Assembly: GCF_000336675.1 (NCBI RefSeq)
Contig: NZ_AOMB01000034.1
Coordinates: forward strand, 1-36,527
DNA: 36,527 nucleotides
Direction of reading: 5' to 3'
From: Halococcus hamelinensis 100A6
GTDB taxonomy: Archaea; Halobacteriota; Halobacteria; Halobacteriales; Halococcaceae
The notes below the pieces were generated by a model. That model was not told the DNA's origin. It searched no databases and saw nothing but the letters and a program-made list of their open reading frames with translations. A program made the translations under genes and the position numbers. Each line of letters opens with the position of its first letter. The stretch's first letter is position 1. Shown here piece after piece: positions 15,975 to 31,692 of this stretch.

Positions 15975-17168
15975 TTAGAGTATGCCTTGTTCGTCGAGTT
16001 CGACTATCGCATCAGCCGAGAGCCCCAATCGGTCTTTGAGGATATCGCTAGTATCCTCACCTTTGCGCGGAGCAGGCTCGACATCAGGTTCGGGAGCGTC
16101 CGAGAAGTGGATCGGTGAACCGAAAACGCGGATGCCGTCCTCGAAGTCTGGGTGGGATACCTCCGGTGCCATCCCCCGCTCGGAGAGATGAGGGTCCTGA
16201 AGCACCTCCTCGATGGTCTGTACTGCACCGGCTGGGACGCCGGCATCGACGAGGCGATCCTCGATGGCCTGACGGTCCCGATCAGCGGTCCATTCCCCGA
16301 TAACTCTATCAACTTCATCCATGTGATCGACCCGCTTGACGTTGGTTTCGAATCGGTCGTCATCGATGAGATCGGTCCGACCCATCACTTCGAGCAGCGT
16401 CTCCCAGTGGTCGTCCGAGGCACAGAGAATGGTGACGTATCCATCCTGTGTTTCGTAGGCGTTGTATGGAGCCTTCGCGAGGCTACTGTGGTGATTGCCC
16501 GTCCGCGGTGGAACGTCCGTTTCCTTGTACGCCGCCGCCAACTGTGATAGCAACGCTGGGAACACCGACTCGTACATGCTCGCCTCGACATACTGTCCCT
16601 CTCCCGTACGTTCGCGCTGGAAGAGTGCCCCAAGCACGCCTGCCGCGAGGTGGGTTCCGCCGAGGAAGTCGCCCGGTGCGATGCCAGTCTTGACGGGAGT
16701 GTCATCCGGAAACCCCGTTGCGTCCATCACCCCACCAGTTGCCTGCACGACGAGGTCCATCGCGAGCATGTCGCTTCTGGGACCGGTGTCGCCGAACCCA
16801 CTACCGTGGGCGTAGATGAGTTCGGGATTGACCGACGAGAGCGTCTCGTAGTCAATGCCGAGTTTCTCCATCGTGCCAACGGCGTAGTTTTCGACCAGTA
16901 CATCGGTCTCTTCGACGAGGTCTTTCAGCAGCTCCGTCCCGCGCTCCTCGGCGAGGTTGAGCGTGATGGCGTCCTTTGAGGAGTTGAGCATCACGATTTC
17001 GGGCGGTTCGCCGCTCTCGACACGTGACCGGAGCGGCTCGCCGAACGGGGGCTCGACCTTCACTACGTCCGCACCCATATGAGCGAGCAGCAACGAACAG
17101 TAAGGGCCGTTGTAGATCTGTCCGAGGTCGAGTACCTTGATACCGTCGAGTGGTTGTGAAGGTGTCAT
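15975..17168 (-). CDS. Class III CoA-transferase (CaiB/BaiF family)
   Basis: The start is the ATG at 17166-17168, giving 397 residues beginning MTPSQPLDGIKVLDLGQIYNGP, the usual family opening; the frame upstream to 17270 lacks conserved sequence. Family landmarks are ADVVKVEPP (33-41), the NLAEERG and LVENYAVGTMEKLGIDYE region, HGSGFGDTGP (121-130) and MDLVVQATGGVMDATG (137-152). Asp138 there is the expected catalytic aspartate that forms the acyl anhydride. Such enzymes move CoA between carboxylates such as formate/oxalate, carnitine or dicarboxylates. The gene diverges from a CoA-acylating aldehyde dehydrogenase, so it probably activates or releases the same acid, possibly sulfoacetate. 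The substrate is inference. Confidence 0.9.
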   Translation of the reverse strand: MTPSQPLDGIKVLDLGQIYNGPYCSLLLAHMGADVVKVEPPFGEPLRSRVESGEPPEIVMLNSSKDAITLNLAEERGTELLKDLVEETDVLVENYAVGTMEKLGIDYETLSSVNPELIYAHGSGFGDTGPRSDMLAMDLVVQATGGVMDATGFPDDTPVKTGIAPGDFLGGTHLAAGVLGALFQRERTGEGQYVEASMYESVFPALLSQLAAAYKETDVPPRTGNHHSSLAKAPYNAYETQDGYVTILCASDDHWETLLEVMGRTDLIDDDRFETNVKRVDHMDEVDRVIGEWTADRDRQAIEDRLVDAGVPAGAVQTIEEVLQDPHLSERGMAPEVSHPDFEDGIRVFGSPIHFSDAPEPDVEPAPRKGEDTSDILKDRLGLSADAIVELDEQGIL

Positions 17169-17309
17169 ACAGGATGGCTGTCCCGGCCGCGTATTAGCGT
17201 TCGGCTTCCTGCTTCCAGTAGTGAACATACTGAGCGTTCGGCGCTCGAGTTTGCTAATCCGTATGTCCACCAGCCAAAGACTATTCCGTTACGGGAGTAA
17301 ATCCCCCGC
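17169..17309. promoter_or_regulatory. Divergent promoter region between CoA-transferase and aldehyde dehydrogenase
   Basis: These 141 nt separate the two divergent start codons. A short dyad GAGCG-TTCGG-CGCTC lies at 17232-17246. TATA-like AT-rich strings lie near 17284 (ACTATTCC, 26 nt before the dehydrogenase ATG) and near 17195 on the minus strand (GCTAATAC). One regulator could control both genes from here. Confidence 0.35.
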
Positions 17310-18740
17310 ATGAGTCTTCAAAAGAACACTTCAACCGATCACGAGCCAACAGTAATCGTCTCCGAACTCATCGAGAACGCCGAAGCGGCGATGGCTGCCA
17401 TCGACGACTACGACCAAGAGCGCACCGACGAGTTGGTTCAAGCAGTTGGGTGGGCCATCTACCCTGAGAAACGCGCACGTGAGATATCAGAAGTGGCCGT
17501 CGAGACCACGGGACTTGGCAACGTCGAAGACAAGATAAGCAAAAAACAGCGCAAGACGAAAGGCACCCTCTCGGACGTTCTTGGCAAGCCATCCGTGGGT
17601 GTCATCGACCGCGACGAGGAGGCCGGCCTGGTCGAAATCGCAAAGCCTGTCGGCGTCGTCGGCGCTGTAGTACCCTCGACGAATCCGGGCGCAACGCCGG
17701 GGAACCTCGCCATGATGGCGCTCAAAGGTCGCAACGCCATTGTGCTTTCGCCCTCGCCGGGCGGGGTCGAGACATGCGAACTCGTCGTTGAGTACATCCA
17801 CGAAGAACTCGAAAAAGTGGGTGCGCCAACCGACCTCGTTCAAATGGTTCCGCGACCGATCAACAAAGCAACCACTTACGAGCTGATGGAGCAGGTCGAT
17901 CTGCTACAGGTAACCGGGTCAGGTAGCAACGTGGAACATGGCGAGGAATCAGGGACGCCGAACTACTGTGTTGGCGAAGGAAACGCGGTATCGGTCGTTG
18001 ACAGCACGGCCAACCTTCCGGCGGCCGCCAACCGGATTCAAGAGAGCAAGACGTTCGATTACGCAACGAGCTGTTCGAGCGATAACTCCGCTGTGGTCGT
18101 TGAGAGCGTCCATGAGGACTTCCTCGCTGCGCTCGAAGCCGAGGGTGGCTACGTCTGCAGTGACGAGGAGCGCGCGAAACTCGAATCGACCATGTTCCCG
18201 GAGGGCCACGGCTCACTCAGCGGCGAGGTCGTCGGCCAGCCGCCTGCGGACATCGCCGCCGCCGCAGACCTCGGAGAGGAAGCGCAGGATGCGTCCTTCT
18301 TCGTCGTCGAGGGCGAAGGCGTTGGTTCTGACTATCCGCTGTCCGGCGAGAAGATATCGGTCGTGCTCACCGTTTACGAAGCTCCTGATTTCGATTCGGC
18401 GCTCGACCGAACTAGTGATATCCTCGACTTCGAGGGTACTGGTCACTCTTGTGGCCTTCACACCACCGATGACGACCACGCTGAACGTATCGGACACGAG
18501 ATCGATGTTGCCCGCCTCCTTATCAATCAGCCACAATGTTACGGCAACGGTGGAAACTTCGATAATGGCTTGGAGTTCACTCTCTCGATGGGGGCTGGGA
18601 CGTGGGGGGGCAACCAGACCGACGAAAACATCAACTATACACACTTCCTCAACACGACGACCGTATCGCGCCCTCTCTCCGAGGAGGTCCCAAGCGACGA
18701 GGCGGTATTCGGATCCTATCTCGAAAGATACGGACGATAG
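17310..18740 (+). CDS. CoA-acylating aldehyde dehydrogenase, sulfoacetaldehyde dehydrogenase (SauS)-like
   Basis: This 476-residue protein belongs to the short CoA-acylating branch of the aldehyde dehydrogenase superfamily (EutE/PduP/SauS). Landmarks are VGVVGAVVPSTNPGATP (114-130), the nucleotide-binding region around GRNAIVLSPSP, VTGSGSNVEH (201-210), YCVGEGNAVSVVD (219-231) and the catalytic cysteine 255 in FDYATSCSSDNS. The TSCSSxNS form recalls the sulfoacetaldehyde-specific SauS rather than the ICASEQ form of EutE. A C-terminal NGGNFDNGLEFTLSMGAGTWGGN is also typical. The enzyme would interconvert an aldehyde and its acyl-CoA using NAD(P) and CoA. The family call is firm; the sulfoacetaldehyde substrate is an inference from the motif and the comAB genes 12 kb away. 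Confidence 0.8.
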   Translation: MSLQKNTSTDHEPTVIVSELIENAEAAMAAIDDYDQERTDELVQAVGWAIYPEKRAREISEVAVETTGLGNVEDKISKKQRKTKGTLSDVLGKPSVGVIDRDEEAGLVEIAKPVGVVGAVVPSTNPGATPGNLAMMALKGRNAIVLSPSPGGVETCELVVEYIHEELEKVGAPTDLVQMVPRPINKATTYELMEQVDLLQVTGSGSNVEHGEESGTPNYCVGEGNAVSVVDSTANLPAAANRIQESKTFDYATSCSSDNSAVVVESVHEDFLAALEAEGGYVCSDEERAKLESTMFPEGHGSLSGEVVGQPPADIAAAADLGEEAQDASFFVVEGEGVGSDYPLSGEKISVVLTVYEAPDFDSALDRTSDILDFEGTGHSCGLHTTDDDHAERIGHEIDVARLLINQPQCYGNGGNFDNGLEFTLSMGAGTWGGNQTDENINYTHFLNTTTVSRPLSEEVPSDEAVFGSYLERYGR

Positions 18741-19161: not shown

Positions 19162-19254
19162 GATCCGTCGTAAAGTGAGAGACATCGCCATATCGAATCA
19201 GAGGTTAGCTTTAATAGCCTGTTCGTTTTTCGTCGCTCATGGAGCTTTCTCACG

Positions 19255-19322
19255 CAAGCACCACGCTTAATTGGTTGTTATGTTATCTACTCATGTGAGA
19301 AAGGGGTCGGATTCCGTCATGC
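19255..19322 (+). promoter_or_regulatory. Promoter-proximal element shared with comA (tctC copy)
   Basis: CAAGCACCA (19255-19263), TAAT (19268-19271) and a 26-nt element (19297-19322) with core AGAAAGGGGTCGG then TTCC and CATGC recur at 29481-29549 with the same order and spacing (42 versus 43 nt between first and last parts). The 26-nt parts match at 22 positions. If TAAT is the TATA box, transcription would start at or near the 26-nt element, so it could be an operator over the start site or a 5' leader signal. It ends 85 nt before the tctC ATG. Confidence 0.6.
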
Positions 19323-19407
19323 AGCGCTGACGGATATATATCGAATATCCCTTCCAAGAAGTCTGTAAGAGAGTTCCAGCCTATGCGGCGAAGTAGATAA
19401 AACAAAG

Positions 19408-20469
19408 ATGGATCAAATGTTCACTCGGCGGGAGGTCGTTGGCACAGGAATCGGACTCGGAGCGGCTGGTTTAGCTGGTTGTACCAGTATATCCGGTGAG
19501 AACACAGGGTCTGGCGGAACGAACAACTCTACAAGCGGATCAGGTGGGAACTATCCCTCTGAAGAGGTCTCGGTCATCGTTCCGTGGTCTCAAGGTGGTG
19601 GAACGGATCGTTCGACCCGTGCACTCACCCCGACGTGGTCGAAGAAGCTCGGGGCGAATTTCGTCGTCCAAAATTATCCCGGCGGCTCCACACAGGTCGG
19701 TGGCGAGAAGCTCTACAACGCCACTGCGGACGGGTACAACATCGCCATGTGGAATCTGCCACAAATGCAAGCGACTTGGCTGTTTCAAGACGCTCCGTAT
19801 GATGGGTCGGACTTTGATTATATAGGGACAAACCACTGGGACCCAACGATGTGGTTTGCCCCGCAGGATAGTCCATACGAGAACATGACGGAGTTCATCG
19901 AGTACTCGCGAAATAATAGTGTCACTGTAGGGACGACAGCAGCTATCGGGAATACCGCACTGTCAGCACTCCTCGTTAAAGATTCCTATAATCTCGATTA
20001 CCAGCTGGTGAACCTCGAAGGTGGCTCTTCGGTCCGGCAGGCAGTGCTGGCCGGCGACGTCGATGCAGCAGTCAACCAGCCATGGGCATTCAACCCATCG
20101 AACGTTGGGAAAGTAACCGCACTTGGAACGCACACTTCTGAGCCACAGAGCCTCTGGCCGAATACTCCGACGTTCAAGCAGCTCGGTATGACTGACGTCC
20201 CCTTAGTCGACGAGGGGCTTGGACAGTGGAAACTAGTCGTTGCACCCGGTGGGCTCAAGAAGAACCACCCTGACCGGTTTCAGCAATTAGTGAAGACGTA
20301 CAAACGGACGATGAACGACAATGACTACCGCCAACGGGCGAAACAGCAGGGCAAACTTACCAAGATCCTTCAGTACAATGGTCCAGAGAAGACCAAGAAC
20401 ATCGTCAACCAGAACACGAAGTTTATGAAGAAATACCGCTCACTGATCGAGAACTTCAGACAAGGGTAA
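19408..20469 (+). CDS. tctC: Tripartite tricarboxylate transporter substrate-binding lipoprotein
   Basis: This 353-residue protein starts MDQMFTRREVVGTGIGLGAAG, a Tat-type signal with lipobox LAGC, then a Ser/Gly/Asn linker. The binding domain has the TctC/Bug family opening VIVPWSQGGGTDRSTRAL (usually P-x-x-x-GGGTD), VQNYPGGSTQVGGEKLY, WFAPQDSPYENMTEFIEY and GGSSVRQAVLAGDVDAAVNQP. The family delivers carboxylates or sulfonates, including tricarboxylates and, through SlcHFG in Chromohalobacter, sulfolactate. It heads an operon with tctB 20 nt downstream. The long upstream region shares an element with the comA promoter, linking it to sulfonate metabolism. The actual ligand cannot be read from the sequence. 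Confidence 0.88.
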   Translation: MDQMFTRREVVGTGIGLGAAGLAGCTSISGENTGSGGTNNSTSGSGGNYPSEEVSVIVPWSQGGGTDRSTRALTPTWSKKLGANFVVQNYPGGSTQVGGEKLYNATADGYNIAMWNLPQMQATWLFQDAPYDGSDFDYIGTNHWDPTMWFAPQDSPYENMTEFIEYSRNNSVTVGTTAAIGNTALSALLVKDSYNLDYQLVNLEGGSSVRQAVLAGDVDAAVNQPWAFNPSNVGKVTALGTHTSEPQSLWPNTPTFKQLGMTDVPLVDEGLGQWKLVVAPGGLKKNHPDRFQQLVKTYKRTMNDNDYRQRAKQQGKLTKILQYNGPEKTKNIVNQNTKFMKKYRSLIENFRQG

Positions 20470-20489
20470 TACCTTCTACACACATATCT

Positions 20490-21062
20490 ATGAACATATC
20501 CGATTCGGATAAACCAAGCTTCAGCTTACTGGATAGAGAGGTGGTCGTTGATCCCGGTGAGGCGATCTTGCCGGTAGTAGTGCTGATTGGGTGCGGTATA
20601 TACTACGGAGGGACGCGTAGCCTACCCAGCCAGTCCATGGTATATGCTGGACCGTTGCTGTACGGAACGGCGGCGCTTGCAGTTATTACATTTGCTCAGC
20701 ATTCACTCACTATCGGACAAAAAACCGGTGAAGCTACCCCTCCCACACAAACATCTGAAGGGCAGACGGTCACCTCAGCAACCGATGCCGCTGAAGCGAC
20801 CGCTGAGTCTGGGACCGGGACCGAACCCGAGTCAAACAACAAATACTTCAATCGCTACACTGCGGCTGGGCTAGTTGTTCTCTCGGCTGGCTACGTGTTT
20901 TCGCTTGAGATACTCGGGTTCATCTTTCCGACCGTTGGGTTTCTGGCAGCGTTGGTAACACTGTTCGGTGAACGCCGGCCGATATACATTACCACGTACT
21001 CAGTCGCTCTAACAGCCGTAACATGGGCAATCTTCATCTACTGGCTGAACATCCCGCTATGA
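20490..21062 (+). CDS. tctB: Tripartite tricarboxylate transporter small membrane subunit
   Basis: This 190-residue protein has four transmembrane helices (about 27-42, 52-68, 129-150 and 156-188), the usual TctB plan. A polar Thr/Ser/Glu-rich loop of about 55 residues lies between helices two and three (about 72-126), longer than usual and typical of halophilic adaptation. Sequence conservation of TctB is always weak, so the call rests on topology and its place between tctC and tctA. Its stop codon overlaps the tctA start by four bases (ATGA), indicating translational coupling. Confidence 0.82.
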   Translation: MNISDSDKPSFSLLDREVVVDPGEAILPVVVLIGCGIYYGGTRSLPSQSMVYAGPLLYGTAALAVITFAQHSLTIGQKTGEATPPTQTSEGQTVTSATDAAEATAESGTGTEPESNNKYFNRYTAAGLVVLSAGYVFSLEILGFIFPTVGFLAALVTLFGERRPIYITTYSVALTAVTWAIFIYWLNIPL

Positions 21063-22585
21063 ACGGAGCTCCCATTCAATTGGCTAGCGGTTCGCTCGGA
21101 GAAGGTATCGGAGTGTTGTTCGATCCTGTTATCATAGCCGTGATATTTGTTGGAACAGCTATTGGTATCGTCTTCGGTGCTATCCCTGGCTTTTCCGCTA
21201 CGATAACGATCATACTTCTTACACCCGTCACTATCCCACTTCAGCCCGCTGTTGCACTGATTCTCCTCGTATCAGCGTATGGTGGTGCGGTCTACGGAGG
21301 ATCTATCCCGGCTATTCTCATCAACACCCCAGGTGCACCCGGTTCAGTAGTGACTTGCTGGGATGGATACAAGCTCACTCAGCAAGGAAAAGCCGTCTAT
21401 ACACTTGCTGTTTCAGCGTTCGCCTCTGGTATGGCTGGGATACTCGCAGCTGCCGTACTCCTATTGGCGGCCCCGATCGTCGCCGAGTTCGCCCTCGAAT
21501 TTGGGCCCCCCGAGATGTTCCTTCTGGCGATTTTCGCGCTAACGATCATTCCAGCAGTGAAGAACTCCTCGCTCAGTAAGGGACTACTTGCGGGGCTGTT
21601 CGGTCTCTTGGTTGCAACCGTTGGAAACGACCCGCAGCTTGCACAACCCCGGGCGACTTATGGGTTGACGATACTACAAAGTGGCCTCGATTATATCGTC
21701 ATCCTCATTGGACTGTTCGTTCTGACAGAGATGATTCGACTCGCGATGCGGGGGTCGACAGCTGAAAAAGTGGAGGATGAGACACTCGGTGGCTACGATC
21801 AAGTAGTTGCTGGCGTCAAGGCAGTGATCGCTCGCCCAGTTGATTTCCTTCGTTCAACGGCTATCGGGGCATTTGTCGGGTCGCTGCCGGGCGCAGGAGC
21901 TGATGTCGCCAACTTCGTCTCATACAACGAAGCTCAACGATGGTCGGGCGAAGAGAAATCCGCACTCTATGGAACGGGAATAATTGAGGGGGTCATCGCT
22001 GCTGATTCGAGCAACAATGCCACTCAGGGTGGGGCGCTCATCCCGACATTAACCCTTGGCATTCCTGGAAGCGGATCAACAGCAGCATTAATCGGGGCGC
22101 TCGCTATCCACGGCCTGAATCCCGGCCCAGGACTCTTCCAACGCTCTGGACCGATCGTCTACGCGATGATACTCTCGTTGTTCCTCGGAAATATACTCAT
22201 AATTGTCTATGGACTCCCCGGCTCACGATACTTCGGGAAAGTAGCCTATATCCCGGTTCGTTTCATTATCCCGATCGTAACTGTGCTCGCGGTAGTCGGG
22301 GCATTTGCAGTGCGGAATGCACCATTCGACCTGTATGTCATACTCGTCGTCGGCGTCCTTGGACTCGTCTTTGTCAAGTACGACTATCCACTCGTCAGTC
22401 CCGTACTCGGGGTTATTGTCGGTGATATCGCTGAAACGGGGTTCGCACGAGGATGGCTACTGAACAGCGAAAGTTGGAGTGCTTTCATCACTAATAGTGG
22501 AGTGTCCATCGGCCTCACCGTTCTGATCTCCCTCTCACTCTTGACAACGATAGTCGGAAACTACCGCAAAGGACAAAGCAATTAG
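21059..22585 (+). CDS. tctA: Tripartite tricarboxylate transporter large membrane subunit
   Basis: This 508-residue protein starts at the ATG 21059 that overlaps the tctB stop; the frame upstream inside tctB is not used. It has about twelve transmembrane helices and the two TctA family signatures: GAIPGFSATITIILLTPVT near the N-terminus with YGGAVYGGSIPAILINTPGAPGS, and the second-half counterpart GSLPGAGADVANFVSYNEAQRW with NATQGGALIPTLTLGIPGSGSTA. These glycine/proline-rich hairpins form the substrate pathway. Transport is normally driven by a cation gradient, sodium being likely in a halophile. Both pore repeats are complete, so the operon appears functional. Confidence 0.93.
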   Translation: MNGAPIQLASGSLGEGIGVLFDPVIIAVIFVGTAIGIVFGAIPGFSATITIILLTPVTIPLQPAVALILLVSAYGGAVYGGSIPAILINTPGAPGSVVTCWDGYKLTQQGKAVYTLAVSAFASGMAGILAAAVLLLAAPIVAEFALEFGPPEMFLLAIFALTIIPAVKNSSLSKGLLAGLFGLLVATVGNDPQLAQPRATYGLTILQSGLDYIVILIGLFVLTEMIRLAMRGSTAEKVEDETLGGYDQVVAGVKAVIARPVDFLRSTAIGAFVGSLPGAGADVANFVSYNEAQRWSGEEKSALYGTGIIEGVIAADSSNNATQGGALIPTLTLGIPGSGSTAALIGALAIHGLNPGPGLFQRSGPIVYAMILSLFLGNILIIVYGLPGSRYFGKVAYIPVRFIIPIVTVLAVVGAFAVRNAPFDLYVILVVGVLGLVFVKYDYPLVSPVLGVIVGDIAETGFARGWLLNSESWSAFITNSGVSIGLTVLISLSLLTTIVGNYRKGQSN

Positions 22586-22862
22586 ACCCGGATAAGCAGG
22601 GGAATACGCCGTGTTGAGGTTAGTAGGAACCATCCGCTCGCGAGAACGGAAACACATGCGGCTTGAATTATCCACTGGGTAGCAAATAGGGCAGTGGTAT
22701 GACCAATCAAGACGGCTGACGGTACACCCTGATGCCGCCATCCCTGAAGCGATGGTTTATAGCAGGTCAAACGACCAGACCAGTGACGATTGGTTACACA
22801 AGGATTTTGTGGAGTTGATGCTGGTGTTTTTTACGCTGGCTAACGGTATCTCCTCTATCGTT

Positions 22863-23912
22863 ATGCAAACAGCCACCTATCACGGCAAAGGCGACGTTCG
22901 CATCGAAGAACGACCTGATCCGGAGGTCAAGAACGCGACTGATGCCGTCGTTCGTATCACCCATACCGCTATCTGCGGGTCAGATCTTTGGTACTACCGC
23001 GGACAGCGCGACCATCCCGAGAATTCACCTATCGGTCACGAACCGATGGGTATCGTCGAGGACGTTGGCGATGCCGTTCGTCATGTCGAACCCGGGGACC
23101 GTGTACTTGCACCATTCACTATCAGTTGTGGTTCCTGTGAGTTCTGTCGGAAGGGACTCACTACCTCTTGTGTGAATGGTTCCTCCTGGGGTGGCGACGA
23201 AAGCGGAGCGCAGGGAGAAAAGATCCGTGTGCCTCATGCTGGTGGAACCCTGGTTCGGGTACCTGATCGATACAAGGACAACGAAAAGACACTCGAAGCG
23301 CTTCTGCCGCTTACTGACGTCATGTGTACCGGCCATCATGCTGCCGTCAGTGCTGGCGTCGATACCGGTGATACCGCCGTCGTCATCGGGGATGGAGCCG
23401 TTGGGTTATGCGGCGTTCTTGCCTCAAAACGCCGTGGAGCTGAACGAATCATCGCGATGGGACACCACGAGGACCGCCTCGAGATCGCCGAATCGTTCGG
23501 TGCGACCGAGATAATCTCAGCGCGCGGCGAGCAGGCTATCACGGAGGCTCGTGACCAAACCTACGGTGGTGCGGACCACGTTCTCGAATGCGTCGGCACG
23601 GAATCATCGATGGAGACAGCCGCCGCAGTTGCTCGACCGGGCGGGTCAGTCGGCTACGTCGGCGTCCCAATGGGTGTCAAAGATACTGAGTTTCTCCGGA
23701 CTATGTTCAGCAAGAACATCTCGCTCGCTGGTGGTATCGCTCCAGCTCGGAGTTACATCGATGACCTCATGAACGATATACTACAGGGAACACTTGACCC
23801 ATCACCGGTGTTCACAAAGACCGTCGAGCTTGATGATATCCCTGAAGGATATCGAGCGATGGATGAACGCAACGCAGTGAAAGTGATGGTGAAAGTCGAC
23901 AGATCCGGCTAA
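22863..23912 (+). CDS. Zinc-dependent medium-chain alcohol dehydrogenase
   Basis: The ATG at 22863 (349 residues, MQTATYHGKGDVRIEER) is chosen because it gives the normal family N-terminus; the longer frame from 22752 adds a non-conserved hydrophobic stretch. Catalytic zinc ligands appear in ICGSDLWYYRG (Cys) and GHEPMGIVEDVG (His-Glu). The structural zinc lobe has four cysteines in SCGSCEFCRKGLTTSC. The Rossmann motif is VVIGDGAVGLCGVLASKR. TTTTTTAC about 30 nt upstream may be the TATA box. The enzyme would oxidise an alcohol or reduce an aldehyde with NAD(P). Next to a sulfoacetaldehyde-type dehydrogenase it could act on isethionate or a related hydroxy-sulfonate, but that is speculative. 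Confidence 0.9.
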   Translation: MQTATYHGKGDVRIEERPDPEVKNATDAVVRITHTAICGSDLWYYRGQRDHPENSPIGHEPMGIVEDVGDAVRHVEPGDRVLAPFTISCGSCEFCRKGLTTSCVNGSSWGGDESGAQGEKIRVPHAGGTLVRVPDRYKDNEKTLEALLPLTDVMCTGHHAAVSAGVDTGDTAVVIGDGAVGLCGVLASKRRGAERIIAMGHHEDRLEIAESFGATEIISARGEQAITEARDQTYGGADHVLECVGTESSMETAAAVARPGGSVGYVGVPMGVKDTEFLRTMFSKNISLAGGIAPARSYIDDLMNDILQGTLDPSPVFTKTVELDDIPEGYRAMDERNAVKVMVKVDRSG

Positions 23913-24424
23913 TTCGATCGCGAGCAAGCCTGTAGTCCCCTATACTCCCCTCCTAAACCTCCGACGCAGCACTATAAACGTAAGCTGCGCCTTTTGAACA
24001 CCATCACTTAAACGATCTCTCCGATTCCCCATCGATGATGTGTTCCTCATTCGAAAGATGAGGCGCTCATCCTCGTTCAGTTGGGAAAACCCGCGAACTG
24101 CAGATTCAGAAGCCTTGCTTCTCCTGTCGTCGATCACTACGCTACTGACAGGGCTCCTCTCTTAGAAATCGTCCTCAAAGCGATGCAAGCAGTCCACCAA
24201 TCCTCGATAGTGAGAGAGTTTTTCATTCCCAAAATAGAACGTGGAAATTGTGCCGCCGGACGATTTACAGGTCATTACTGGTTCACTATCGTCCTCGGAG
24301 TCGGGTTGAGTCATCCATTCGCCTCTCCTCAGTGGCTGAGTCGTGATCGACTCCGAGGAGAGTATTCACCGATTCACTATGCGTTCGTCGAAGAGGCTCG
24401 GAGAGCGCCTGTTGTGAAATGCTG

Positions 24425-24545
24425 AGGGGGGGCTACTTCCGCAGAAGTAGCGGATAACCTAGATATCTCAGAATCGCCTGCCTTCGTTACCTCGATCAGT
24501 GCTTCTCGCTCGGTTAAGTTCGGTAATAGCGGTATCTGCTTCTGA
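24425..24545 (+). pseudogene. Possible remnant of a winged-helix regulator
   Basis: One frame reads GGATSAEVADNLDISES, which resembles the first helices of haloarchaeal winged-helix domains (A-T-T-A-E-V-A-D-x-L-x-I-S-E-S). It loses similarity immediately after, has a stop just upstream, and ends at 24543-24545. The same bases contain a perfect 8-bp hairpin (24432-24451) that may simply reflect this codon string. Confidence 0.3.
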
Positions 24546-24710
24546 CTTTGACGGTATTCATCTGTCGTTCGTGAGACAAGTAGCTATCCATCGATCCACC
24601 CCAAGTGACTCATCGAGAAGAGTGATCAATAGAACCTGTGACCGATAGGAGGCTTCCTATTCGTACGGTCTCATAAGTTTGACAGCAACAGTCACATACT
24701 GTACCACGAT

Positions 24711-24720
24711 ATTTTTATAC
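24711..24720 (+). promoter_or_regulatory. TATA box for nadE
   Basis: ATTTTTATAC is centred about 26 nt before the GTG start at 24741, so the transcript would begin at or next to the start codon (leaderless). Confidence 0.6.
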
Positions 24721-24740
24721 AGTGACGAACGTGTAAGGCC

Positions 24741-25595
24741 GTGGGAGATCTCTACGACCAGACCCAAGACGAAATTGCACCGATCGACCTCAGGTTTTCA
24801 GGCGACGAACTCGAGGCGGAACTCGACCGTATCACGTCGTTCATCGACGAACAGGTCGCAAAACAAAACGTCGAAGGGGTCGTCGTCGGACTCTCGGGGG
24901 GTATCGACAGTACGGCGGTCGCTCACCTCGCCGTTGAGGCGCTCGGCGTCGAGGCGGTCCATGGTCTCGTTCTCCCCCGTGAAGTGAACCGGGACAAGAA
25001 TATGAATGATGCTGAGCAGGTCGCCACCGATCTCGGGATCACTTACGATGTCGTCGAGATCGACCCTCTCTTAGAGCAATTCCTCGATCTCGAGATGGGT
25101 GAGAACCCAGAGACCACTGAGGAAGAATGGGAACATCGTTTCGTTGGAAACACGAGCGCTCGCATCCGAATGACTATCGCATACCTTCTCGCCAACCGCG
25201 AGAACAAACTCGTGCTCGGGACGGGCAACCGGGTCGAACTCGGGCTTGGCTACGTCACCAAATATGGCGACGGCGGTGTTGACTGCAACCCTATCGGTGA
25301 CCTCTACAAACAGCAGGTCCGCCAGCTCGCTGCCCACTTCGGCGTTGACGAATCACTCGTCCAGAAGACCCCGACCGGTGGAATGGTCGATTACGATACT
25401 GATGAGGAGGAGTTCGGTGTAGATTACGATACTCTCGATGCCATTCTTGCACTTGCTTTTGACGACGGCACTCCGGTGTCAGCAGCCGCACGTATTGCTA
25501 ACACCACTCCCGAAGTCATCGAACAGATAGTGGAAATGAAACGAGGTAGCGAACACAAACGAACAGTACCTCCTACACCAGCCGATACTGAGTGA
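24741..25595 (+). CDS. nadE: NH3-dependent NAD+ synthetase
   Basis: The start is a GTG, supported by a TATA box 26 nt upstream and by the lack of an ATG in frame before conserved sequence. The 284-residue protein has the ATP-pyrophosphatase loop GLSGGIDSTAV (50-60), LPREVNRDKNMNDA, the substrate region RIRMTIAYLLANRENKLVLGTGNRVELGLGYVTKYGDGGVD, and the C-terminal KTPTGGM segment. It has no glutaminase domain, so it should use ammonia to amidate nicotinic acid adenine dinucleotide. The ancient enzyme is normally housekeeping; here it stands alone inside the metabolic island, and whether it is the only copy in the genome cannot be seen. It may be required cargo or an extra copy serving the NAD-dependent dehydrogenases nearby. 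Confidence 0.95.
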   Translation: MGDLYDQTQDEIAPIDLRFSGDELEAELDRITSFIDEQVAKQNVEGVVVGLSGGIDSTAVAHLAVEALGVEAVHGLVLPREVNRDKNMNDAEQVATDLGITYDVVEIDPLLEQFLDLEMGENPETTEEEWEHRFVGNTSARIRMTIAYLLANRENKLVLGTGNRVELGLGYVTKYGDGGVDCNPIGDLYKQQVRQLAAHFGVDESLVQKTPTGGMVDYDTDEEEFGVDYDTLDAILALAFDDGTPVSAAARIANTTPEVIEQIVEMKRGSEHKRTVPPTPADTE

Positions 25596-26002
25596 AAACG
25601 CGATAAGACCGGGATTAGCGTTCGATCTGTGATGAGCCATTGCATCGCTCTACGTGCTGTGTTCACAATGACAAGTCCTGTATGAACTCCTGATCGACCT
25701 TCTTCGGAGGTATGAACGTGGCTACGACTGGAATGTTATTAGCTGGGCTCACCAGATAGCAGCCGTATCCCTTAGTAGCAGCCATCTTCAAGCGTCGGCA
25801 CACTGCTCACGGACGACTGAAATTTCGGGAGCGAGCGGAGTAACTGGACTTTGTCGGGGTCATCGTCGACTCGTTACCCGATTGCCGGATAATGGCCAAC
25901 CCTTGCGAACTAAGACCGTGGTTACTTAACGCATGAATGTTTGCGGAGCATGTGAGTAAAGCACTTCCCGCAAGACGAGCTCGGATGAAATAAATAAGTA
26001 CA
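25596..26002. other. Intergenic region before the BCCT transporter
   Basis: About 400 nt with no gene. A CTTAACGC string near 25928 could be a TATA box. About 20 nt further, CATGTGAG followed by TAAAG resembles part of the tctC leader (CATGTGAGAAAG), but the match is short and gapped, so I do not count it as a third copy of the shared element. Confidence 0.35.
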
Positions 26003-27619
26003 ATGAGATATCTATCGAACGCAGCCGAGGAATTCAACCCGATAGTTTTGCTCACGTCTCTCTCGATTCTGGTTTCCATGACCGTGGTCATCGTTGGCTG
26101 GCCGGATGCCACCACGGCGACACTGTCGAGCCTCAACGAGACGATCATCACGAACGGCAGTTGGTTCTATCTTTGGCTGGTGTTCCTTTCGTTCGTGTTC
26201 CTTCTCTACGTTATACTGGGACCATGGGGGCGTATCACCCTCGGTAGTTCGGACGAGAAGCCCGAATACTCGTATCCGGAATACCTCGCGATGATGTTTA
26301 CCGCCGGACTATCCTCCGGTGGATTAGAGTACTGGGGGCCCGTCGAACCGCTGGTACAGTATCAGACACCACCGCCGTTTTTCGGGTCCGGTTTGACCGG
26401 GTGGGAGCAAATAACCGGGGGGCTTCAGTACGCGATTTTCCACTACGGAACCTCTGCGTGGTCCGTCTATCTCGTGTTCGGTGTTCTGATATCGTATTTC
26501 GTTTACCGAAAGGACATGCCGGTGAGACCCGCAGTCATCCTCGCACCGTTTCTGGGTACGGACAACATCGACGGCTGGATGGGGAAAGCGGTCGATACCC
26601 TCTCCGTGGTGGTCGCGGTGAGCGGAATCACGGTTTCGTTCGGACTCGGCATCGACCAGTTTCTTTCCGGCCTCTCGTATAACTGGGGCCTTCAAACCGG
26701 CGGGCTCGGCGAAACCGTCCTCATACTGCTCGTTACTTCGCTGTTCCTCGTTTCAGTGCTACTGGGGATACAGAAGGGAATTCGACGACTCGCTGACCTC
26801 AACGTCGTTCTCCTCGTTTTCCTCACGGTGGCGTTTTTGGTATTCGGCCCGTTGTCGTTTCTCCTCAACGTCGGCACCGGTGCGATTCAGGGGTATATAA
26901 CCGATTTCGTCGGGATGAGTCTGTTCTTCGATCCCAATGCTGTCGGCTGGCTTAGCTCCTGGACGGTGTTCTTCTGGGCGTGGTGGCTCACGTTTGCACC
27001 CATGATCGGGGTGTTCATGGCGCGAATTTCCCGTGGTCGGACACTGAGGCAGGTCGTCGTTGCAGGTATCATGGGATCGTTTGCGCTCACTGTCCCGTGG
27101 TATACGGCTACCGGTGGGTCCTCACTCTGGTTGCAAACCACTGGACAGGCCGACTTGCTGGGTATATACTCGGAGTTCGGTTTAGCAGGCGTGAGTTTCG
27201 GGGTTTTCGACCAAATACTCCCGTTCGCTGACGTTTTCTCGGTCGTTCTGCTACTCCTCGTGCTGAGCTTTCTGATCACGACGCTTGATTCGGCGACACT
27301 CAGTTTCTCCATCATCGCCACCGGCGGGGAGAAATCGCCGACGGCGTTCAATCGGGTCATCTGGGGCGTGATTCTGAGCGCGCTCACGGTCGCGCTCAGC
27401 CTCGCTGGCGGGATCTCGATACTTCGCTCGTTCACCGTCGTTGTCGGGCTGCCTGCGGCCGGTTTGTGTACGATTGCGCTGTTCGGTGCGATCGTCCAGC
27501 TCGAACGTGATTTCCCGGTTCTGGTCGGCGAACGGAAATACGCAGGAACGACTATTGTCTCGAAGGTGAACAGTGCGTTACCGAATCGGGAGGCGAATAC
27601 GAAAGAGTCGGATGATTGA
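26003..27619 (+). CDS. BCCT-family transporter (betaine/carnitine/choline type)
   Basis: This 538-residue protein has twelve predicted helices and the family signature WTVFFWAWWLTFAPMIGVFMARISRGRTLRQ (split: residues 320-334 and 335-350), close to BetP. A glycine-rich TM1' region reads AGLSSGGLEYWGPVEP (101-116). The second substrate-helix segment IFHYGTSAWSVYL (145-157) has Tyr where betaine-type members have Trp, while the later Trp is kept, so the aromatic box differs and the ligand may not be glycine betaine. Cytosolic tails are short, so osmosensing like that of BetP is unlikely. It sits 21 nt before an amidase gene, which suggests uptake of an amide or quaternary amine that the amidase then cleaves. 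Confidence 0.9.
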   Translation: MRYLSNAAEEFNPIVLLTSLSILVSMTVVIVGWPDATTATLSSLNETIITNGSWFYLWLVFLSFVFLLYVILGPWGRITLGSSDEKPEYSYPEYLAMMFTAGLSSGGLEYWGPVEPLVQYQTPPPFFGSGLTGWEQITGGLQYAIFHYGTSAWSVYLVFGVLISYFVYRKDMPVRPAVILAPFLGTDNIDGWMGKAVDTLSVVVAVSGITVSFGLGIDQFLSGLSYNWGLQTGGLGETVLILLVTSLFLVSVLLGIQKGIRRLADLNVVLLVFLTVAFLVFGPLSFLLNVGTGAIQGYITDFVGMSLFFDPNAVGWLSSWTVFFWAWWLTFAPMIGVFMARISRGRTLRQVVVAGIMGSFALTVPWYTATGGSSLWLQTTGQADLLGIYSEFGLAGVSFGVFDQILPFADVFSVVLLLLVLSFLITTLDSATLSFSIIATGGEKSPTAFNRVIWGVILSALTVALSLAGGISILRSFTVVVGLPAAGLCTIALFGAIVQLERDFPVLVGERKYAGTTIVSKVNSALPNREANTKESDD

Positions 27620-27640
27620 TACCGTGCCCTAACCGAGGGA

Positions 27641-29185
27641 ATGAGTATGACATTCAAACCGCCGACCGACGCTGAGTTGGCCGAGATCGCTGAGGAGCTG
27701 GGAATTTATTATACGGATGCCGATATCGCTGTCTACAAGCGCTTCATCGATAGAATACTGGACGACATTGAGTGGGTTGCTAGAGGGACGACTCCCCAGT
27801 TTGCTCCCCATGACATCGACTACTCGGATCGGGAGTTCGGACATAAGCCCACTCCCGAAAACAACCCCTACAACGCATGGATAACGAAGTGTCGGGTGGA
27901 GGGTGCGAAAAACGGTCCGCTTGCCGGAAAGACAGTGGGCCTCAAGGACAACATCTCGCTTGCGGGCGTCGAGATGACGTGTGGCTCCCGACTGCTGAAC
28001 GGCTATCGGCCGGGTATCGATGCAACCGTCGCCACGAGGTTGCTCGAATCCGGTGCGGAGATCACGGGAAAGCTCAACATGGAGAGTTTCTCCTTTTCCA
28101 CATCGAGCGACAGCTCGGACTACGGGAAGGTAACGAACCCGTGGGATCGAAACTACATTGCCGGTGGGTCATCCAGTGGAAGTGGTGTCGCACCGGCCAT
28201 CGACGAGGTGGACATCGCGGTCGGAACCGACCAGGGTGGTTCGATCCGCGTTCCAGCGGCCTGTTGTGGTATCGTCGGACTCGATCCCACGACCGGTCTC
28301 GTCCCGTACACGGGGATCTTTCCCCTCGATAATACCATGGATCACGTCGGCCCGATGGCGAAGACCGTCAAAGAGACCGCTGTCGCACTCGAAGTCATGG
28401 CTGGTAACGATGGACTGGACTCCCGACAGCCACCGTCGCTCGATACGGATACCTATACCGAGGGACTCGTCGAGGACGTGACCGACATCGAGATCGGCGT
28501 TCTCGCCGAGGGGTTCGAACACGACGAAAGCGAGCAGGTGGTCAGTGATGCAGTTCGGGACGCGATCGCCACCTTCGAAGATCTAGGGTCCACGATCCGA
28601 TCGGTTTCCGTTCCCCTCCATGACAAGGCATCCAAATTCGCGTTCGTCATCTGGGGCTATGGAGGGTTGCAGATCTACAAACAGTCGGGCCAAGGGTCAT
28701 TGTACAAAGACTGGTACAACACCGAGCTCATGGAGACGTTCAAGCGATCCAAAAATACTAGCATGAACGAACTCTCGGACACCGAGAAAGCGATACTATT
28801 GGCTATGGGATACTTCGACCACGGATATCCGGACCCGATATATGGGAACTCCCAAAACCTCAGTTTGGAACTCCAGCGGAAATACGACGAAGTATTCGAA
28901 GACGTGGACGTTATTGCCCTTCCGACGATCCCGATGAAACCGTTCGAAATGGACGGGGCGAACGACCGCGTCGACCGGCTTTTGCGTGAATCCCACCTCA
29001 CCAAGAACACGTCCCCATTCAGTACGACGAATCATCCGTCGATCTCCATTCCGGTTGGAACGGTCGATGGCCTACCTGTCGGTCTCCAGCTGGTCGCGGA
29101 CCATTTCGAGGAAAAGAAGCTGATCCGTGTCTCCTATACGCTTGAGCAGAACATCGATTGGAAGGACCGAACGTATAGCACCTGA
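27641..29185 (+). CDS. Amidase signature family hydrolase
   Basis: This 514-residue protein shows the complete Ser-cisSer-Lys triad: catalytic Lys102 in GKTVGLKDNISLAG, the glycine/serine loop GGSSSGSG (175-182) holding the cis-serine, and the nucleophile Ser201 in GTDQGGSIRVPAACCGIVGL. An N-terminal extension of about 80 residues and overall layout resemble the longer amidases found with nitrile hydratases. It has no signal peptide, so it works in the cytosol. A second ATG two codons in (27647) is an equal start candidate. It is the last gene of a two-gene unit with the BCCT transporter; a purine-rich GAGGGA precedes the start. The natural substrate is unknown; an N-acyl amine taken up by the transporter is the obvious guess. 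Confidence 0.92.
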   Translation: MSMTFKPPTDAELAEIAEELGIYYTDADIAVYKRFIDRILDDIEWVARGTTPQFAPHDIDYSDREFGHKPTPENNPYNAWITKCRVEGAKNGPLAGKTVGLKDNISLAGVEMTCGSRLLNGYRPGIDATVATRLLESGAEITGKLNMESFSFSTSSDSSDYGKVTNPWDRNYIAGGSSSGSGVAPAIDEVDIAVGTDQGGSIRVPAACCGIVGLDPTTGLVPYTGIFPLDNTMDHVGPMAKTVKETAVALEVMAGNDGLDSRQPPSLDTDTYTEGLVEDVTDIEIGVLAEGFEHDESEQVVSDAVRDAIATFEDLGSTIRSVSVPLHDKASKFAFVIWGYGGLQIYKQSGQGSLYKDWYNTELMETFKRSKNTSMNELSDTEKAILLAMGYFDHGYPDPIYGNSQNLSLELQRKYDEVFEDVDVIALPTIPMKPFEMDGANDRVDRLLRESHLTKNTSPFSTTNHPSISIPVGTVDGLPVGLQLVADHFEEKKLIRVSYTLEQNIDWKDRTYST

Positions 29186-29630
29186 AGGGTTTTAGCGCGA
29201 CGTCCCGGCTCGATAACTCGTTTATACGTCGTGGATCAGGTCGCGCTCGCGTGGTTACCGATGGGATGGGTAGTTGACTCCGTAGCGATCAGCACGTCAT
29301 TGGTCGGGTCGTGAACCCCCCCACCGTCTCACGTCCCAACCCTGAACAGGTTCCAAGCGAGAGAGCGTTGTTCGACTCTCATCCCGAAAAGTATGGGCGA
29401 TAAGAACTCTCATTTCAGGACGGCTCTCTCCGCACCGAAAGCTCGTTCAGCGACGTACATCACCGATTAGCTTGCCAGAACAAGCACCATCACTAATACG
29501 ATGTGGACTTCAGATGTAGTAGGAAGAAAGGGGTCGGTTTCCAACATGCTCCAAAGGGAGGGGTTTGCGCCAGTATCGAGCGCTGAACACCCGAGCGACG
29601 GGAGAGCAGCGAACCGGATCAGTAACCATC
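29186..29630. other. Intergenic region before comA
   Basis: About 445 nt without a gene. TTTATAC near 29222 is a possible TATA box. The notable content is the element at 29481-29549 shared with the tctC upstream region. Confidence 0.5.
29481..29549 (+). promoter_or_regulatory. Promoter-proximal element shared with tctC (comA copy)
   Basis: CAAGCACCA (29481-29489), TAAT (29494-29497) and the 26-nt element (29524-29549; core AGAAAGGGGTCGG, then TTCC and CATGC) repeat the tctC upstream arrangement. TAAT lies about 27 nt before the 26-nt element in both, which fits a TATA box and start site. The element ends 81 nt before the comA ATG, giving a leader of just over 100 nt, long for a haloarchaeon. 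Confidence 0.6.
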
Positions 29631-30521
29631 ATGACCATGTTAGATTTCCTCGACACACCAAGCCGTACCACAAAACCACGCGATGCCGGAATCACCCACG
29701 CACTCGACGCCGGGAAGGGCCCACAGGAGGTACGTGACCAGCTCGACGTCTGTGGGGAGTTCGTCGATATCGTGAAACTCGGCTGGGGGACCGGCTACGT
29801 CTCGAATCGGCTCGAAGAGAAACTGGCGCTGTACCGACGCCGCGACATCACGCCGTGTTTCGGCGGCACCCTGTTCGAGGTGGCGGTCATGCAGGACCGC
29901 TTCGAGCCGTTCCGCGAGAAATTGCTGGACCTCGACATCGACCTCGTCGAGGTGTCGACCGGGGTCATCTCACTCGATCACGACGAGAAATGTGAGTACA
30001 TCGAGCGTCTCGCCGAGGATTTCACCGTGCTCTCGGAGGTCGGTCGCAAGGATGGCGACGACAATCTCGACCTCGATGCGTGGGGCGACCGTGCGGTCCG
30101 CGAGCGCGAGGCGGGCGCGTGGAAGATCGTCGCCGAGGGCCGTGCGAGCGGATCGACCGGCGTCTACGGGACCGACGGAGACGTGCGCGACGACGTGGTC
30201 GAACGACTCACCGGCGACCTCGATCCCGAAGAGATCGTCTTCGAGACGCCACAGCGGAGCCAGCAGGTCTGGTTCATCGAACAGCTCGGCCCGTCGGCGA
30301 ACCTCGGGAACATCGAACTCGACGACGCAATCGGACTAGAGACGCTCCGGCAGGGACTCAGAGGTGACACGGCGGAGCTGTTCCACGGTACGGAGGGCAG
30401 TCCCACGGAGGACGGACGCTGTCTCGACGATATCGCCGACGGATCCGGGTGTACGGAAATCTGGGAGCACCTCTCCGAACAGCGCCAGTCATCCGACGAA
30501 CAGCGCGTTGAAAGTGAATAA
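29631..30521 (+). CDS. comA: Phosphosulfolactate synthase
   Basis: The ATG at 29631 (296 residues; a second ATG is two codons later) is chosen because the ComA domain begins at KPRDAGITHALDAGKG. Further family landmarks are VDIVKLGWGTGYV (45-57), PCFGGTLFEVAVMQDRF (75-91), DLVEVSTGVISL (104-115), LSEVGRKD (134-141) and WKIVAEGRASGSTG (164-177). The enzyme adds sulfite to phosphoenolpyruvate, making (2R)-3-phosphosulfolactate in a TIM-barrel, the first step of archaeal coenzyme M synthesis. The barrel is followed by a non-conserved acidic tail of about 45 residues. Haloarchaea of this type are not methanogens, so the product is more likely sulfolactate as an end product, solute or sulfite sink. 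The operon continues with the VOC gene 11 nt later. Confidence 0.9.
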   Translation: MTMLDFLDTPSRTTKPRDAGITHALDAGKGPQEVRDQLDVCGEFVDIVKLGWGTGYVSNRLEEKLALYRRRDITPCFGGTLFEVAVMQDRFEPFREKLLDLDIDLVEVSTGVISLDHDEKCEYIERLAEDFTVLSEVGRKDGDDNLDLDAWGDRAVREREAGAWKIVAEGRASGSTGVYGTDGDVRDDVVERLTGDLDPEEIVFETPQRSQQVWFIEQLGPSANLGNIELDDAIGLETLRQGLRGDTAELFHGTEGSPTEDGRCLDDIADGSGCTEIWEHLSEQRQSSDEQRVESE

Positions 30522-30532
30522 CTCGACACACA

Positions 30533-30982
30533 ATGACTGCCAACACCACAACTGCGACCGAAACCGAAGCGGCACTGAACATCGACGGCGAACACATCTT
30601 CCATCTGGCGATCCCTACCGATGATATCGACGCCGCCGAGGCGTTTTACATCGACGGAATGGGCGCTAAAAAGGCCAGGCGGAAGGACGACCGTCTCACG
30701 ATGGACTTCTACGGCGACCAGATAGTCTGTCACAAGGCCTCGCCCGAAGACATCGACGAGGACGTGACGATGTATCCGCGTCACTTCGGGATGACGTTCA
30801 CCGACGAAGCCGACTTCGAGGCACTCGTCGAGCGCGCCGAGACCCACGATCTCCCCTTCTTTGAGGAACCGATGCGTCGGTTCGAAGGTGAGCACGACGA
30901 ACACCGAACGTTCTTCCTCCGAGACCCCTCGAATAACCTCCTCGAATTCAAGTGGTACGAGAACAACGAGAACATGTATTGA
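30533..30982 (+). CDS. VOC-superfamily protein (glyoxalase/extradiol dioxygenase fold, COG3565-like)
   Basis: This 149-residue protein is one VOC unit of two beta-alpha-beta-beta-beta modules: FHLAIPTDDIDAAEAFYIDGMGAKKARR, FYGDQIVCHKA, then YPRHFGMTFTDEADFEAL and FFLRDPSNNLLEFKWYEN. His in FHLAIP, His in PRHFG and Glu in LLEFKWY are the expected metal ligands. The RRFEGEHDEHRTFFLRDPS segment matches the COG3565 group of predicted dioxygenases. A Thr/Glu-rich N-terminus of about 17 residues precedes the domain. The gene lies between comA and comB and its stop overlaps the comB ATG by one base, so it is almost surely part of the same pathway. VOC proteins include epimerases, lyases and dioxygenases; which applies here is unknown. 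Confidence 0.85.
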   Translation: MTANTTTATETEAALNIDGEHIFHLAIPTDDIDAAEAFYIDGMGAKKARRKDDRLTMDFYGDQIVCHKASPEDIDEDVTMYPRHFGMTFTDEADFEALVERAETHDLPFFEEPMRRFEGEHDEHRTFFLRDPSNNLLEFKWYENNENMY

Positions 30983-31692
30983 TGGAAGTCACCGTTCGTT
31001 CACCACCCGAAGCCGACGAGATCGTCACTAACGACGATGCCGTCGTGGTGGTCGATGCCCTACGGGCGAGCGCGACGGTCATCGCACTGCTCGAAGCCGG
31101 TGCGGAGTCGGTTCGACCGGTTGTTTCCGTTGATGATACGGATATTCCGGACGACGTGCTCACGGCGGGCGAGCACCATGGCGAGCGTCTCCCCGGATTC
31201 GACTTCGGCAACTCACCACGCACGGTTCGTAGACATGCCGATCGCGTGGCGGGCAACCGAGTCGTCATCCAGACCACGAATGGCACGAACTGCGTTCGCC
31301 GGTTCGACCACGCTGCCGACGTACTGATGGGCTCGGTAGTGAACGCCCGAGCGCTAGCCGACACCATCGGCAGAACCATTCCGGACTCACGCCGGGTGAT
31401 CGTCGTTCCCGCATGGCGACGGGGCGACTACGCTCCCGAAGACCGATATGCCGCCGAAACACTCGTGCGAGCAATTGAGCGTGCACTCGGACGTAACCTG
31501 TCGCCGTACTCCAATCGCTTCAAGAAGACCGACGCTGTAACCGTCTTCCGCGAGTCCGCCACTGGTGAATTTCTTACTGACAAGGGTGCTGAACAAGACG
31601 TTCGATTCTGTGCTCGACGAAATGAGTTCGACGCTGTCCCCTTCCTCCGCGAGGAGGGTTTTGTCGATCGAACCCGGTCAAGAGAAGAATAA
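30982..31692 (+). CDS. comB: 2-phosphosulfolactate phosphatase
   Basis: The start ATG at 30982 shares a base with the stop of the VOC gene (TGATG), giving 236 residues; the frame upstream to 30952 is inside the VOC gene. ComB landmarks are VVVVDALRASATVIALLEAGA (split at residues 21-31 and 32-41), AGEHHGERLPGFDFGNSP (62-79), VVIQTTNGTNCVRR (94-107), DVLMGSVVNARA and EDRYAAETLVRAI. The enzyme is a Mg-dependent acid phosphatase that removes phosphate from phosphosulfolactate to give sulfolactate. With ComA it completes sulfolactate synthesis from phosphoenolpyruvate and sulfite. The later coenzyme M genes (sulfolactate dehydrogenase comC, sulfopyruvate decarboxylase comDE) are not in this window. 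Confidence 0.9.
   Translation: MEVTVRSPPEADEIVTNDDAVVVVDALRASATVIALLEAGAESVRPVVSVDDTDIPDDVLTAGEHHGERLPGFDFGNSPRTVRRHADRVAGNRVVIQTTNGTNCVRRFDHAADVLMGSVVNARALADTIGRTIPDSRRVIVVPAWRRGDYAPEDRYAAETLVRAIERALGRNLSPYSNRFKKTDAVTVFRESATGEFLTDKGAEQDVRFCARRNEFDAVPFLREEGFVDRTRSREE

Follow-up and report, generated by a model that had tools for sequence, protein, structure and literature searches.

Related systems and gene content of the locus

Several described systems come close to the arrangement reported here. Regulators of haloarchaea act at activator sites or operators that lie next to the BRE and TATA box, the GvpE site being one example. In bacterial sulfoacetate degradation, SauS works together with CoA activation, and Xsc is the sulfite-releasing enzyme. 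ComA and ComB, which include phosphosulfolactate synthase, are described for coenzyme M synthesis (Graham et al. 2002, as cited in PMC3448663). For the control of organosulfonate metabolism in haloarchaea, the literature searched, which was limited in coverage, yielded no report.

We analyzed a stretch of 36,527 nt, hereafter the window, which is the forward strand of contig NZ_AOMB01000034.1 of the haloarchaeon Halococcus hamelinensis 100A6; copies of the elements were sought in the 3.42-Mb, 96%-complete draft genome of this strain. The genomes used for comparison included two members of the same family (G013 and G015), one genome of a third family (G076) and Natrialbaceae. The window contains two operons 10 kb apart, tctCBA and comA-VOC-comB, and sauS adjoins tctCBA on its upstream side (Table 1). 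The comA start is either ATG 29631 or ATG 29637, the latter being suggested by the G076 ortholog.

Table 1. Genes and predicted regulatory elements of the window
Feature	Position	Strand	Remarks
Class III CoA-transferase	15975..17270	-	divergent from sauS; recurrent near tctCBA in relatives
sauS, acylating sulfoacetaldehyde dehydrogenase	17310..18740	+	NF047625
Imperfect dyad GCTTTC-TCAC-GCAAGC, predicted operator	19244..19259	+	upstream of tctC
CAAGCACCA-N4-TAAT half	19255..19271	+	upstream of tctC; CAAGCACCA 19255-19263; TAAT, candidate weak TATA box, 4 nt later (19268-19271)
AGAAAGGGGTCGGATTCCGTCATGC, lineage-specific element near predicted transcription start	19298..19322	+	upstream of tctC
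tctCBA, TTT-type (tripartite tricarboxylate-type) transporter operon	19408..22585	+	domain matches; tctC 19408-20469, tctB 20490-21062, tctA 21023-22585
Imperfect dyad GCTTGC-CAGA-ACAAGC, predicted operator	29470..29485	+	upstream of comA
CAAGCACCA-N4-TAAT half	29481..29497	+	upstream of comA; CAAGCACCA 29481-29489; TAAT 4 nt later (29494-29497)
AGAAAGGGGTCGGTTTCCAACATGC, second copy of the lineage-specific element	29525..29549	+	upstream of comA
comA-VOC-comB operon	29631..31692	+	Pfam ComA and 2-phosphosulfolactate phosphatase domains; comA 29631 or 29637-30521, VOC protein 30533-30982, comB 30952-31692

As in bacterial sulfoacetate degradation, the window combines a CoA-transferase and a transporter with SauS, which at 647.1 bits passes the curated equivalog cut-off of 600 for NF047625. 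The window differs from the bacterial systems in having a TTT transporter and a class III CoA-transferase, and in that the relatives combine these genes with comA-VOC-comB. A further difference is that Xsc was not found in the draft genome, where the best TIGR03457 match (278 bits) is below the cut-off of 676, and it was rejected as a pathway partner there; in other genomes it scores over the cut-off (G013) or just below it (G087). Judging from what is known of the enzymes, sulfoacetate taken up by the cell would be turned into sulfoacetaldehyde by the CoA-transferase and SauS. The gene set also fits a capture of sulfite by ComA as phosphosulfolactate during sulfonate degradation, which is speculation.

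The comA operon shares its Pfam domains with ComA and ComB of coenzyme M synthesis and departs from them by the VOC protein between comA and comB. The window ComA contains the Pfam ComA domain, and its score against archaeal ComA (TIGR03849) is 221 bits, below the equivalog cut-off of 280. Its identity to Bacteroidota proteins amounts to 43-49%, versus about 29% to the usual haloarchaeal ComA, which suggests gene transfer. Among 392 genomes of the order, the window-type operon was otherwise present only in G013, G015 and G076. The gene for the VOC-fold protein overlaps comB and is retained in each of the four genomes that have the operon (69-75% identity), so that a pathway role of the protein is probable. 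In G013 and G015, tctCBA directly follows comA-VOC-comB, sauS is adjacent and the CoA-transferase is close by. Gene order thus supports a functional link between the transporter and sulfonate chemistry, a tie that a sequence-only reading of the window had drawn from the promoters and to which sauS beside tctCBA also points.

Two side observations concern the gene products. A BCCT transporter and an amidase are encoded between the two operons (26003-29185) and might have sulfonate-related substrates. The window ComA ends in a C-terminal tail, DDIADGSGCTEIWEHLSEQR (within 30380-30518), for which Pfam shows no domain; in G013 and G015 this tail ends ComB instead (ComB loci L113:5637-6665 and L114:10946-11989), and elsewhere in haloarchaea (L013-L082) it closes small reading frames that stand alone (HLDDVxDGxGCTEIWEHLSExR). 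The tail seems to shift from one protein to another within the operon.

A shared layout at the two promoters

According to the sequence-only reading, both operons are preceded by CAAGCACCA, a TAAT and a longer element matching at 22 of 26 positions. All of these are present, and their likeness exceeds chance as judged by shuffling. The long element has the pattern AGAAAGGGGTCGG-N-TTCC-NN-CATGC, its two copies being identical at 22 of 25 positions (22 of 26 with one base more). It begins 43 nt (tctC) and 44 nt (comA) after the start of CAAGCACCA, and the start codon follows at a distance of 85 nt for tctC and 81 nt for comA, counted to ATG 29631. The best ungapped 25-mer match between the two 300-bp upstream regions is 22, compared to a mean of 15.9 and a maximum of 19 in shuffled sequences (0/300). 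The 13-mer core of the long element was without significance by itself, whereas the bipartite arrangement was significant.

When up to 3 mismatches were allowed, the long element had two sites in the draft genome, both upstream of these operons, and a strict search in 59 relatives returned no copy; it is thus not the common dispersed repeat that would have spoken against a promoter role. Identity between the promoters is 73% in the dyad half described below and 88% in the long element, and falls to 45-47%, the level of shuffled sequences, in the spacer and in the upstream and downstream flanks. This background identity speaks against a recent duplication, and the conserved islands fit selection on separate sites instead.

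The conserved half belongs to an imperfect dyad site that recurs in relatives

The CAAGCACCA-TAAT half proved real, but the earlier reading had missed that it belongs to an imperfect dyad: its CAAGC is the end of a 16-nt GCTTnC-N4-RCAAGC, and the TAAT lies 8 nt past the dyad. In a genome-wide search with the pattern CTTGCNNNNRCAAGCACCA, the window sites were the sole matches with 0 (comA) and 1 mismatch, all others having 2; since the pattern was written from these sites, only the absence of more close copies is informative. Sixteen of the sites were aligned. Dyad positions pair in 72% of cases versus 27-46% in slid controls, a value that is not above column shuffles, and the 5' half is variable.

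Upstream of tctC, a dyad-type site occurs in 12-13 Natrialbaceae genomes, within an island TTGCAnnnGCARGCMGAAyannCAAC that lies about 170-270 nt upstream amid otherwise diverged flanks. With up to 3 mismatches, most of the Natrialbaceae genomes searched have this island at the same position, and one of them has an additional match; these sites are related by descent and hence were not counted as independent. The sole genome-wide match of G076 to the Natrialbaceae pattern is located upstream of its own tctC (CTTTGC-AAGC-GCAAGC), and a second site, GCTTGC-AGAG-TAAGGC, precedes its comA. The place of the TAAT is taken by TAAC at G076 tctC and by CAAC in most Natrialbaceae. No clear site was seen at the tctC orthologs of G087, G243, G057 and G074.

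We assessed this recurrence with shuffles that preserve dinucleotide content, though not all structure of real sequences. The two window and two G076 upstream regions, scored jointly with the Natrialbaceae profile, reached 170.5 versus 133.3 (sd 3.6; 0/400 shuffles). When shuffling was confined to G076 comA and tctC and the window sites were kept constant, the score was 82 versus 63.2 (sd 2.7; 0/1000). Taken singly, G076 tctC was matched by 0/1000 shuffles and G076 comA by 12/1000; when the window sites alone served for scoring, G076 comA scored the same as other sequence of G076 that was partly chosen for likeness. Four-way searches that were blind to the dyad site reached it in every set tried, with scores near the shuffle maxima. 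The reverse complement of the long element was rejected as a match to the Natrialbaceae profile (7 and 58 of 200 shuffles), the forward CAAGC half being the true match.

A third kind of sulfur gene is linked to the site through seven Natrialbaceae loci, in which a gene with a PAPS-reductase domain (cysH-like) is located no more than a few kb from tctCBA. A core CCCGGAtnTGCAGGCASAAC is present 94-137 nt upstream of the cysH-like gene at five of these loci (at most 1/500 shuffles each) and was not found at the remaining two.

In G013 and G015 the forward strand gave no match to the dyad site. A comparison of the reverse strand, prompted by a scan, yielded GCTTTCTAACACCGGCAWCA as the best match upstream of comA (0/500 shuffles in each of the two genomes) and CCTTTCACACACTGGGTCAA upstream of G015 tctC (24/500 alone; 0/200 jointly with the comA site); G013 tctC was left out of the shuffle test because its upstream region contains a run of N. 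The inverted match of G015 falls in promoter-proximal sequence common to comA and tctC, a few nucleotides before TTTTTA. A GAAAnGGGG motif of G015 was considered as a conserved long element and rejected (5/1000 shuffles with the pair term, 77/1000 without); in both genomes this stretch overlaps the inverted dyad site and so lends the long element no separate support.

The dyad half is thus conserved upstream of orthologous operons, directly in Natrialbaceae and G076 and, more provisionally, inverted in G013 and G015. The weight that had been placed on the 26-nt element shifts to this half, the conservation of the long element in relatives being unconvincing.

Predicted regulation and alternative explanations

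We consider it likely, on the strength of these sequence comparisons, that the shared region is the regulatory site of one predicted, probably dimeric transcription factor governing tctCBA as well as comA-VOC-comB. A single regulator is predicted because the site recurs before the same operons in distant relatives, and the adjacency of the operons in G013 and G015 adds to this support. The same site accompanies several functionally linked operons: both operons in the window, G076 and G013/G015, and tctC and cysH in Natrialbaceae. The protein would bind at the GCTTnC-N4-RCAAGC dyad, probably just upstream of the weak TATA-like TAAT. It would act beside the promoter as an activator, a repressor being less likely; the poor TATA boxes (TAAT, TAAC, CAAC) suggest activation. 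The signal may be sulfur or sulfonate supply, given that the genes encode a TTT transporter next to sauS, enzymes of phosphosulfolactate synthesis and, in Natrialbaceae, a PAPS-reductase-like protein. As at GvpE-type sites, a short dyad-like site lies directly upstream of a TATA-like sequence and is common to operons of one process; the window differs in sequence and genes and by the second, lineage-specific element downstream.

The AGAAAGGGGTCGG element follows the TAAT by about 27 nt and hence lies near the expected transcription start, so that the start at the 26-nt element proposed earlier from the TAAT position is plausible. A start about 25 nt after the TAAT would mean that both transcripts begin with AGAAAGGGGTCGG, and the element, an extra lineage-specific part, may serve either as a further binding site or as the first stretch to be transcribed. 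Read by eye as a peptide, its two copies give RKGSDSVMQR and RKGSVSNMLQR. For tctC, ATATATAT at 19332 was considered as the TATA box, which is possible, although nothing comparable precedes comA. A TATA-like inverted repeat past the shared elements, GGATATATATCGAATATCC (19331-19349), is likewise confined to tctC and could be an alternative promoter or operator. A FilR1-like gene was rejected as the regulator, as it lies beside the cluster in G013 only (L113:17857-18702, next to the CoA-transferase); genes with a FilR1 domain occur elsewhere in the genome of the window strain and none within the window.

A common 5' leader signal had been proposed as the alternative to one regulator; it would be an RNA signal of both mRNAs, riboswitch-like or translational. 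If the TAAT is the TATA box, the long element would indeed form the 5' end of both transcripts, and the leaders, at about 110 nt, are long by haloarchaeal standards. We nevertheless regard such a signal as very improbable, since the window has no Rfam match, the leaders fold with z values of -1.7 and +0.5 and thus with no unusual stability, and covariation within the dyad is not above that of shuffles. Moreover, the conserved half is situated before the expected start, and its inversion in G013 and G015 fits a dyad bound by a protein and speaks against an RNA signal.

Likeness by descent alone, the promoters being copies that arose by duplication or as a dispersed repeat, would account for a long element that is 88% identical and lacks a convincing counterpart in relatives. 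With only two genomic copies, spacer and flanks at background identity, and the dyad half conserved at orthologous operons elsewhere, we consider this origin improbable. There is similarly little likelihood that the site serves the tct transporter alone and that the comA match is a weaker chance likeness, even though most genomes bearing the tctC site lack a window-type comA operon and G076 comA alone is the weak case noted above (12/1000, with ties under window-only scoring). The window comA site is the sole exact genomic match to the dyad pattern, which was, however, drawn from it; comA also has both elements in common with tctC at the same spacing, and the comA sites of G013 and G015 stand at 0/500 shuffles.

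Implications for haloarchaeal sulfur metabolism

Beyond the regulator shared by the two operons, we tentatively propose, as a possibility somewhat short of even, a dedicated and so far undescribed haloarchaeal sulfonate/sulfur regulon, in which one regulator at a GCTTnC-N4-RCAAGC-type site would jointly control the uptake of sulfonates, the formation of sulfolactate from phosphoenolpyruvate and sulfite, and PAPS reduction. If this regulon exists, the co-control of import and degradation with ComAB could mean that intracellular sulfite is captured as sulfolactate. A predicted operator common to a transporter and a biosynthetic operon offers a handle on finding the regulator and its signal, and phosphosulfolactate synthesis outside methanogens becomes linked to sulfonate uptake.
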